A stretch of DNA of 35,230 bases, taken from assembly GCA_018700895.1 (NCBI GenBank), contig JABIUV010000055.1, positions 1 to 35,230 of the forward strand. The letters are read 5' to 3'. The position numbers were made by a program, and so were the translations under genes. Shown here piece after piece: positions 16,768-18,857 of the stretch (its first letter is position 1; every line of letters starts with the position of its first letter). Origin of the DNA: Bacteroidota bacterium. GTDB taxonomy: Bacteria > Bacteroidota > Bacteroidia > NS11-12g > UBA9320. The notes under the pieces are model-generated. The model saw only the letters and a list, made by a program, of their open reading frames with translations. It was not told the DNA's origin and searched no databases.

Positions 16768-16791
16768 CCCATATCTAAAATAACAGTTGAG

Positions 16792-16819
16792 AGGAGTACC
16801 AAGAGGTACTCCTTTTTTT
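16792..16819 (+). terminator. Rho-independent terminator of the isc operon
   Basis: A perfect 9-bp stem (AGGAGTACC, 16792-16800; complement 16805-16813) with loop AAGA is followed by a run of seven T. It closes the iscSUA unit 24 bases after the iscA stop. Confidence 0.93.
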
Positions 16820-16992: not shown

Positions 16993-17000
16993 TATCTTTG
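16993..17000 (+). promoter_or_regulatory. -7 box before the membrane protein/NTPase pair
   Basis: TATCTTTG matches TAnnTTTG and ends 5 bases before the GTG at 17006, supporting both that start codon and a leaderless transcript. No standard -33 box was found. Confidence 0.5.
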
Positions 17001-17005
17001 ACCAC

Positions 17006-18016
17006 GTGCAACGAAACTCCAAGATAATAACGAGGCTTACCGCTCTGTGGGCACTTAGTGAGGCAGGGCTAGGTGGTGTATTGCACGCCATTCAATCGCC
17101 TTTTACGGGACTGTTTGTTGGTGGGTTTGCAATTGTACTCGTAAGTCTTATTGCTTACTTTTCTGATAATAAATGGGAGAGTATTGTCCGCTCTCTACTT
17201 ATTGTACTTATCATAAAACTAGCAGTAAGTCCACATTCTCCTCCTACATCGTACTTGGCAGTTAGTTTTCAAGCGGCGATGGCGGGGTTGATATATAGCA
17301 AACTCAGCTTGAGTAAGTGGAGTGCAATGCTACTTGGTGTTGTAACGCTTATAGAGTCGGCGATTCAAAAACTGCTTGTGCTGACACTCATATATGGCCG
17401 CAGTATTTGGGATGCTCTTAACTCATTCAGTGGTTATGTGGTAGAAAAGATGGGCTTCTTAGGGAATGTGTTTTCAGCTAGTGCGTTGATTACCATTTAT
17501 TTGTGGTTATACGCAATCTTAGGTTTAATCGTAGGGTACATCATTTATGATATAGTTAGATACTTGGATATAAATCAAGGGAATGTGAAATACCAAATTC
17601 AGGCGATAGAGTTTGATAATGAAGTAGGAGTAGCCAAAAAACGAAGAGGTAGATGGAGAATTTGGGTGATTTTTGGAATTTTTTTCGCATTCATTGCAGC
17701 ATACTACTTCATTGTCAGTGATGGAGATGCAGTTTGGAAAAACTGGTTGTATATCTTCTTGCGAAGTACGGGTATCTTATTATTATGGTATTATGCTTTA
17801 GTTCCTTTGTTTAAATGGCTTTTTGGTAATTTTTTAGCATCGAAAAAGCACAAAGTACAAACAGAGATTGACGAGACATTGACCTTGTTGCCCTACCTTA
17901 GGAAAGTGACTAAGCTCGCGTGGCAAGAGAATAAGGACGAAAAAGGCCTTAATAGACTGCGTAACTTTATGGGCGATGCAATACTTTATAGTATTCATCT
18001 GAAAATTGAGGAATAA
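17006..18016 (+). CDS. Polytopic membrane protein, ECF-S-like N-terminal half
   Basis: 336 residues from GTG 17006. The N-terminal half has about six hydrophobic segments (near 8-28, 34-52, 60-77, 83-100, 106-130 and 152-185). Its text TALWALSEAGLGGVLHAIQ and SPFTGLFVGG, then a KLAVSPHSPP loop, recalls small substrate-binding (S) components of energy-coupling-factor transporters and related Bacteroidota proteins; this is by eye, not by search. A basic linker (KKRRGRWRIW, 211-220) leads to two further segments (about 216-236 and 247-275) and a cytoplasmic tail of about 60 residues. The stop overlaps the start of the NTPase gene (TAATG), so the two are made together. Function unknown; a substrate-uptake role is a hypothesis. 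Confidence 0.75.
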   Translation: MQRNSKIITRLTALWALSEAGLGGVLHAIQSPFTGLFVGGFAIVLVSLIAYFSDNKWESIVRSLLIVLIIKLAVSPHSPPTSYLAVSFQAAMAGLIYSKLSLSKWSAMLLGVVTLIESAIQKLLVLTLIYGRSIWDALNSFSGYVVEKMGFLGNVFSASALITIYLWLYAILGLIVGYIIYDIVRYLDINQGNVKYQIQAIEFDNEVGVAKKRRGRWRIWVIFGIFFAFIAAYYFIVSDGDAVWKNWLYIFLRSTGILLLWYYALVPLFKWLFGNFLASKKHKVQTEIDETLTLLPYLRKVTKLAWQENKDEKGLNRLRNFMGDAILYSIHLKIEE

Positions 18017-18492
18017 TGATTTACATCTTAGCAGGTGACATACGCACTGGCAAAACCAGTGCATTGATGGATTGGGTGCCTACTTGGGATAATGTGAAAG
18101 GAATCCTTTGTCCTGACGACGAGAATGAATGCAAGTATCTGTACAACATTGCTACTGAAGAAAAATTCCCGCTAGAAATTTCAGAAAAGATTGAGAATAC
18201 TATCTCAGTGGGTAATTTTCATTTTTTAGAGGATACATTTAAAATAGCTAACTTCTTGCTTGTCAGAACATTCGATGAATATGACTTTGAGTTTTTGGTG
18301 TTAGATGAGCTAGGTAAATTGGAACTGAAAAACGAAGGAATTCACTTAGCAGCAAAGTACATTATCGATAACTATCAGTCCAACGATTTGAAAAATATTC
18401 TACTCGTAGTTCGTACTCATTTGGTTAAAGACATCATCGCTCATTACGGTATACGGAGTTTTCAGATAGTGGCGAGTGAGAGTTTGCCGTAG
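18016..18492 (+). CDS. Small P-loop NTPase, THEP1/NTPase_1-like
   Basis: 158 residues. Walker A is GDIRTGKTS (7-15) and Walker B is LVLDELGKLEL (about 94-104), the acidic DELGKLEL block being the hallmark of THEP1-type (NTPase_1) nucleoside-triphosphatases. The middle VGNFHFLEDTFKIANFLL also fits that family's GxFxF...F..A pattern. The usual later AAKYI and VVRTH segments are present, so the fold looks complete. It is soluble with no signal. It starts on the stop codon of the membrane protein gene, suggesting a membrane/NTPase pair. It lacks the ABC signature LSGGQ, so it is not an EcfA-type ATPase. Family confident, role unknown. Confidence 0.8.
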   Translation: MIYILAGDIRTGKTSALMDWVPTWDNVKGILCPDDENECKYLYNIATEEKFPLEISEKIENTISVGNFHFLEDTFKIANFLLVRTFDEYDFEFLVLDELGKLELKNEGIHLAAKYIIDNYQSNDLKNILLVVRTHLVKDIIAHYGIRSFQIVASESLP

Positions 18493-18857
18493 GCAAGCTT
18501 AAATTTAAGTTTAAATGAGAAGTAGTCAACTTTGGCCTCATACAACATAAAAACGTATGCTAATAAAGAAGATTATCCAATGTAAAAATGGGCGGATGGT
18601 TTTTATATCTACTGTCTGCAAATGGCGACTAAAATTCTTTTTGGCTAATTAGAGTGAAAGAAAGTGAGTTGGCAGTGGGATTTGGAGCAAGTTGGGAATT
18701 GTAGTACGTTTGGATCCTCTTTGGTGGGATATTAATTGAAAAAACAATGACAGGGATATCCTAGTCTTGAGAAGTAGTAAGGACTTTCAGGATCCATTTC
18801 CTCGGGCTGAAGTCAGTCTTTAGTATCAATTTAATCCATACTTTTGTCGTCTACAAA
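18493..18857. other. Intergenic region with palindromic pieces and a promoter
   Basis: 365 bases without a convincing gene. Contents: a 12-base palindrome CTTAAATTTAAG (18498-18509) just after the NTPase stop; an imperfect hairpin GACTTTCAG/CTGAAGTC (18782-18790/18807-18814) around CTCGGG; and a -7 box at 18839-18846. Short frames on either strand (31 codons from 18557 on plus, about 20 codons on minus) have no promoter or coupling and are not called. Confidence 0.6.
18839..18846 (+). promoter_or_regulatory. -7 box of the CNNM/CorC-type gene
   Basis: TACTTTTG matches TAnnTTTG, ending 11 bases before the ATG at 18858. A CTTTAG about 18 bases upstream is a weak -33 candidate. Confidence 0.5.

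Follow-up and report, generated by a model that had tools for sequence, protein, structure and literature searches.

What would a membrane protein and a small NTPase, encoded by two overlapping genes behind the isc genes of a Bacteroidota bacterium, accomplish together? The pair lies in a stretch of 35,230 nucleotides (the window), a single contig in a 2.4-Mb genome with a completeness rating of 100%. An initial annotation had described it as a unit of an S-component-like membrane protein and a THEP1-like NTPase, and this core idea was upheld by the S fold and by pairing in 68 of 76 loci. We propose that the two genes, A and B, encode an ECF-like importer that takes up preformed molybdenum cofactor (Moco) and has a THEP1-like motor, a reading to which we give a probability of about 65%; transport as such, its direction, the exact substrate and NTP hydrolysis as the driving force are what we infer.

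The gene pair and its surroundings

The features of the locus are as follows.

16789-16816, + strand: terminator-like hairpin of the upstream isc genes, 12 pairs and a T tail (about one such site is expected by chance in the region)
16993-17000, + strand: TAtcTTTG, which may be the -7 box of a Bacteroidota promoter with leaderless start (read from the sequence)
17006-18016, + strand: gene A, GTG start, 336 aa
17006-17578, + strand: S-component domain of gene A (residues 1-191), predicted to bind the substrate (AlphaFold model against PDB; conservation)
17579-17650, + strand: basic linker of gene A (residues 192-215), modeled with low confidence (sequence, AlphaFold model)
17651-18016, + strand: rest of gene A (residues 216-336, stop codon), resembling a reduced T component, with two membrane helices plus amphipathic helices (profile match to stand-alone T)
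18016-18492, + strand: gene B, ATG start, 158 aa, THEP1-type P-loop NTPase, proposed motor (sequence, NTPase_1 profile, alignment, pairing)
18493-18857, no strand: space where relatives in the genus carry mobA, fdhF, fdhD and DUF7009, absent here with no trace

Both reading frames run as initially annotated, overlapping by one base (TAATG), 3' of the isc genes and beyond the terminator-like hairpin. Elsewhere in the genus, intact homologues of A and B stand behind the same isc genes, and 182 related stretches were found in named genomes. The pN value is about 0.12 against a saturated pS, and stop codons are absent. The arrangement is therefore more than chance: A-B is a real, intact unit under purifying selection, conserved as a pair. 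Divergence of A is somewhat faster here than among the sister genomes, a speed-up not seen in iscU and iscS.

The unit had also been credited with its own leaderless-type promoter behind the isc terminator. The hairpin is present, as is a TAnnTTTG box immediately 5' of the GTG start, but no exact TTTG is found upstream of this box at the usual -33 spacing; a leaderless promoter for A-B is plausible, if unproven. A riboswitch search of the window found none.

An S-component fold, a T-like part and a THEP1-type NTPase

Gene A encodes a polytopic protein that includes the basic linker KKRRGR and has a helical tail. We modeled it with AlphaFold on an alignment of 112 homologues (pLDDT 87.7, pTM 0.82) and compared residues 1-197 with PDB folds: nine S components matched at Z 12.2 to 9.7, the next row being at 7.1. 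The best matches were 5edl, 4huq_S and FolT (4z7f) at Z 12.2 and RibU (5kbw) at 11.8; Foldseek also ranked 4huq_S at the top, yet with a weak E-value of 0.43. As modeled, residues 1-197 fold as a six-helix ECF S component. The resemblance initially noticed in the N-terminal half of A, for which structure prediction had been named as the check, is thus borne out.

Further features of the domain can be read against known S components, whose AxxxA motif has been linked to docking on the ECF module (PMC11109136). Helix 1 of the window's A carries A16-xxx-A20; the strict motif is found in 27 of the 112 homologues and a small-xxx-small pattern in 88. Within the membrane domain, the polar or charged residues E19, H27, K71, Q89 and Q121 rank with the most strongly conserved, as would be required of the predicted binding site. 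The sole Pfam match to A, to DUF6773, is weak and under cutoff, and was set aside. When A, B, S and T were compared by sequence with PDB chains, no ECF or THEP1 protein was matched; the ECF likeness of S and T is seen by fold comparison only, which counts against the importer reading.

The C-terminal part of A is best understood from five nitrate reductase clusters (L195-L198 and L224), in which S has a gene to itself, about 200 aa long and matching A by profile (E=6e-19), and the gene after it encodes a membrane protein of about 182 aa. The C-terminus of A, although shorter, matches the profile of these stand-alone T proteins (E=1.3e-5, probability 81), with Arg and Pro in common. A model of the 182-aa protein of L224 (pLDDT 81) reached Foldseek probabilities of up to 1.00 against EcfT/CbiQ, and nine EcfT/CbiQ VIA rows stood at Z 8.7 to 7.2, followed by 3.7. 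Modeling thus shows an EcfT/CbiQ fold in the stand-alone homologue. Because the C-terminal part of A aligns with this protein, we read it, by homology, as a probable shortened T component. The basic linker, the two further membrane helices and the tail had been correctly described beforehand; the correspondence to a T component had been missed. The EcfT Ala-Arg-Gly motif occurs neither in the C-terminal part of the 112 A homologues nor in the five stand-alone T proteins, another point against the importer.

Gene B carries a Walker A motif (GDIRTGKT) and the sequence VLDELGKLE; an ABC signature was looked for and is absent. The NTPase_1 profile (PF03266) matches the window's B at E=5e-5 and 23.7 bits, with a curated cutoff of 23.9, and matches its relatives clearly over cutoff, with E down to 8e-26. 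G12, K13, D97, E98, G100 and E103, which make up Walker A and a Walker B with DExGxxE, are invariant among 19 homologues. MobB (PF03205) gave no match to the window's B at E up to 10, and 0.06-0.09 in two relatives. By its motifs and the clear profile matches of its relatives, B belongs to the P-loop NTPases of THEP1/NTPase_1 type and is not an ABC ATPase, in agreement with the initial annotation.

In 68 of the 76 loci with room downstream, B adjoins A or forms one chain with it (five in which B overlaps the end of A were counted as adjacent). These loci come from Bacteroidota, Ignavibacteria and others, and the adjacency proposed earlier as a check therefore holds across genomes. Single-chain fusions take the form S-T-NTPase (L199 and L201), NTPase-S-T (L200) and A-B (L088). 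Furthermore, the distance tree of A closely resembles that of B in a mirror-tree comparison (r=0.79 against at most 0.12 in shuffles, uncorrected for species phylogeny). The other eight loci, with room downstream and no adjoining B, speak against the importer. Examples of A homologues with no adjoining B are found at L209 7396-8472, L210 8597-9610 and L215 8568-9644. The NTPase-S-T chain at L200 5518-6921 lies beside PTS-type genes, with no molybdoenzyme in view, and may have another substrate.

These fusions bear on an alternative division of labor, in which S-T would import Moco and B would be a MobB-like partner passing the cofactor to MobA, the import being powered by another ATPase or by none, like solitary BioY. 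Many relatives do fuse B to MobA, as in known MobB-MobA fusions, and some A homologues have no nearby B. However, NTPase and S-T are directly fused in both orders with no MobA involved, and B also occurs where MobA is separate or absent. We regard this division of labor as unlikely, and retain B as the candidate motor.

Molybdenum in the neighborhood and in the genomes

In relatives, MobA is often joined to B in one chain or encoded after it, and next come FdhD, DUF7009 and an FdhF/YdeP oxidoreductase. Other loci include xanthine dehydrogenase, NapA-like, PhsA-like or NarG enzymes or a sulfite-oxidase-type enzyme, and the neighboring molybdoenzymes cover all three large families. A ModE-like HTH gene is found at L090, L099 and L142. 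Outside the genus, 52 of 71 loci have at least one such molybdenum-related gene. The common denominator of these contexts, as annotated, is the molybdenum cofactor. Purines, formate and nitrate were considered as substrates and dropped, molybdenum being all that the contexts have in common.

In each of the five S-T-TonB operons the S gene is immediately preceded by a Moco riboswitch (RF01055), and another stands upstream of the TonB receptor-A-B operon of L134, the only positive in a scan of 40 loci. The TonB receptors of both operon types are BtuB-like and resemble receptors for B12 and heme. The earlier suggestion that linked riboswitches or biosynthetic genes might name the substrate proved fruitful: RF01055 in relatives, MobA, FdhD and the molybdoenzymes, together with gene content, point to the molybdenum cofactor.

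A-B might instead be a sensor in the membrane, or a scaffold on which the cofactor is inserted, and not a transporter. S-component folds are known also from receptors and MreD (PMC11109136), and NTPase-MobA fusions would suit a role in maturation. Against this stand the separate EcfT-fold subunit, the union of TonB receptor and riboswitch in one operon, and the occurrence of A-B in genomes unable to make Moco; we consider a sensor or scaffold very improbable.

Two further associations were observed. DUF7009 (PF22668) stands beside FdhD and FdhF/YdeP in many A-B loci (for example L045 17954-18319 and L047 7378-7746), suggesting a role with the neighboring FdhF/YdeP molybdoenzymes. Close to A, genes for YeeE/YedE-like membrane proteins and one of MerR type are found repeatedly (L207 4625-6339, L208 7221-9048 and L132 15449-17275); the L208 and L132 sites also have a PhsA-like molybdoenzyme.

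Among 392 genomes of the phylum, MoaA was found in 8 of 34 A-positive and 207 of 358 A-negative genomes (p=2e-4). We examined gene content in 80 chosen genomes, 51 of them A-positive; the A-negative ones were selected by MoaA status, with molybdoenzymes unseen. The argument is carried by MoaC and MoeA, since G510 and G781, two genomes with both, were missed when MoaA (PF06463) was used by itself. PF01568 matches in ORFs of about 1000 aa were left out, by judgment, as ActB-like and devoid of cofactor, and the true FdhF of G069, which PF01568 missed, was added by hand.

MoaC is lacking in 39 of the 51 A-positive genomes, and both MoaC and MoeA in 37. A molybdoenzyme is nevertheless present in 32 of the 39 A-positive, MoaC-negative genomes, against one (G481) of 14 A-negative, MoaC-negative ones (p=1e-6). 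Read the other way, 32 of 33 MoaC-negative genomes with a molybdoenzyme have A (Fisher p=8e-6 and 1e-6), all these counts and tests ignoring phylogeny. Two single-contig genomes, G568 and G574, hold A and several molybdoenzymes with no MoaA, MoaC or MoeA. Cells of this type must obtain Moco externally, and A-B is a candidate route. Two groups count against the importer: the 12 A-positive genomes that do have MoaC and MoeA, and the seven A-positive, MoaC-negative genomes, including that of the window, in which no molybdoenzyme was detected.

Individual genomes depart from the main pattern. In G481 (L206 5638-12409), an ABC permease and ATPase just upstream of xanthine dehydrogenase are possibly another uptake route for Mo or Moco. 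G757 and G794 are A-positive with MoeA and no MoaC, a pattern that could reflect import of metal-free molybdopterin with subsequent insertion of the metal.

The same counts bear on the possibility that the pair is an ECF-like importer of molybdate or tungstate and not of the finished cofactor. Moco riboswitches and ModE-type genes also accompany and control molybdate transport (PMC2408646), which weighs against Moco as substrate, and a ModE-like gene is present in the three loci named above. Furthermore, no A-positive genome tested has a ModA match over cutoff, the 12 Moco makers included; this says little, as many A-negative Moco makers also lack ModA. Molybdate would be useless to the majority of A-positive genomes, which lack MoaC or both MoaC and MoeA, and receptors of B12/heme type fit a large, rare substrate. 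Molybdate or tungstate thus seems a doubtful substrate.

As for the window's own genome, profile searches found no match to MoaA, MoaC, MoeA, the xanthine dehydrogenase family, PF01568 or the sulfite-oxidase family, which does not prove that a molybdoenzyme is absent, since PF01568 missed a real FdhF in G069. The A-B pair here is an intact orphan, left by natural loss of the mobA-fdhF-fdhD-DUF7009 block; it could be a remnant of recent date, or work for a Mo protein that escaped recognition.

A proposed cofactor importer and known systems

In the importer that we propose, the N-terminal S domain of A would bind Moco (Mo-molybdopterin or a derivative) in the inner membrane and the T-like part would couple it to B, which would replace the EcfA/EcfA' ABC ATPases and drive release of the cofactor into the cytoplasm. 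There MobA, often fused to B, would add GMP, and FdhD would sulfurate the cofactor for the adjoining molybdoenzyme. In some relatives, a TonB receptor may carry the cofactor over the outer membrane, with the operon under control of a Moco riboswitch. Free Moco is unstable, which makes its source a further difficulty for this reading.

We think it rather probable that this is the first bacterial Moco uptake system, through which Moco-auxotrophic Bacteroidota and relatives use the cofactor of others by an ECF-type S-T unit with a new, THEP1-type motor. Our literature search, mostly outside subscription journals, found no bacterial Moco importer and no link between THEP1 and ECF. According to a 2022 paper, bringing in Moco from outside had been neither examined nor observed except in Caenorhabditis elegans (PMC9793310), and a 2024 survey of the S-component fold makes no mention of THEP1, NTPase or molybdenum (PMC11109136). 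If the proposal is true, Moco joins folate, B12 and thiamine among the cofactors that bacteria acquire from others, and the existence of Moco auxotrophs with formate dehydrogenase-like, xanthine dehydrogenase and nitrate reductase molybdoenzymes is explained. Bacterial THEP1-type NTPases would gain a physiological role, and an ECF-type S-T pair would operate without an ABC ATPase. Since cultured strains such as Taibaiella lutea and Winogradskyella pelagia have the pair, the passage of Moco across the membrane becomes testable.

B shares with the THEP1/NTPase_1 family (PF03266; PRK13695) Walker A and Walker B with DExGxxE, and its relatives share the profile match, which in the window's B falls just under the cutoff; B differs in being paired with a membrane S-T protein or MobA and in being shorter than the archaeal members. 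To our knowledge, no transport role has been assigned to members of this family. MobB-MobA fusion proteins (PRK14490) likewise have a P-loop NTPase at the N-terminus of MobA, as do B relatives, but the B-type NTPase matches NTPase_1 and not MobB. With the ModABC molybdate ABC transporter the pair shares a molybdenum context, in which a Moco riboswitch and a ModE-type gene can lie upstream; unlike ModABC, it has no periplasmic binding protein or ABC ATPase, and most genomes that have it lack Moco synthesis. Exogenous Moco is also used by C. elegans, which takes it up with the diet (PMC9793310), although here the user is an animal.

The closest comparison is with ECF transporters, in which S components such as FolT and RibU work with EcfT/CbiQ and EcfA/EcfA'. 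We do not file A-B as a canonical member, because the ABC ATPases and the Ala-Arg-Gly motif, two defining features, are missing at this locus; its NTPase is of THEP1 type, A joins S to a probable shortened T in one chain, and the predicted substrate is Moco. What the two have in common is an S fold with AxxxA in helix 1, a T fold as modeled in the stand-alone homologue, a cofactor-type substrate, predicted here, and a P-loop NTPase gene in the same operon, here encoding a putative motor.
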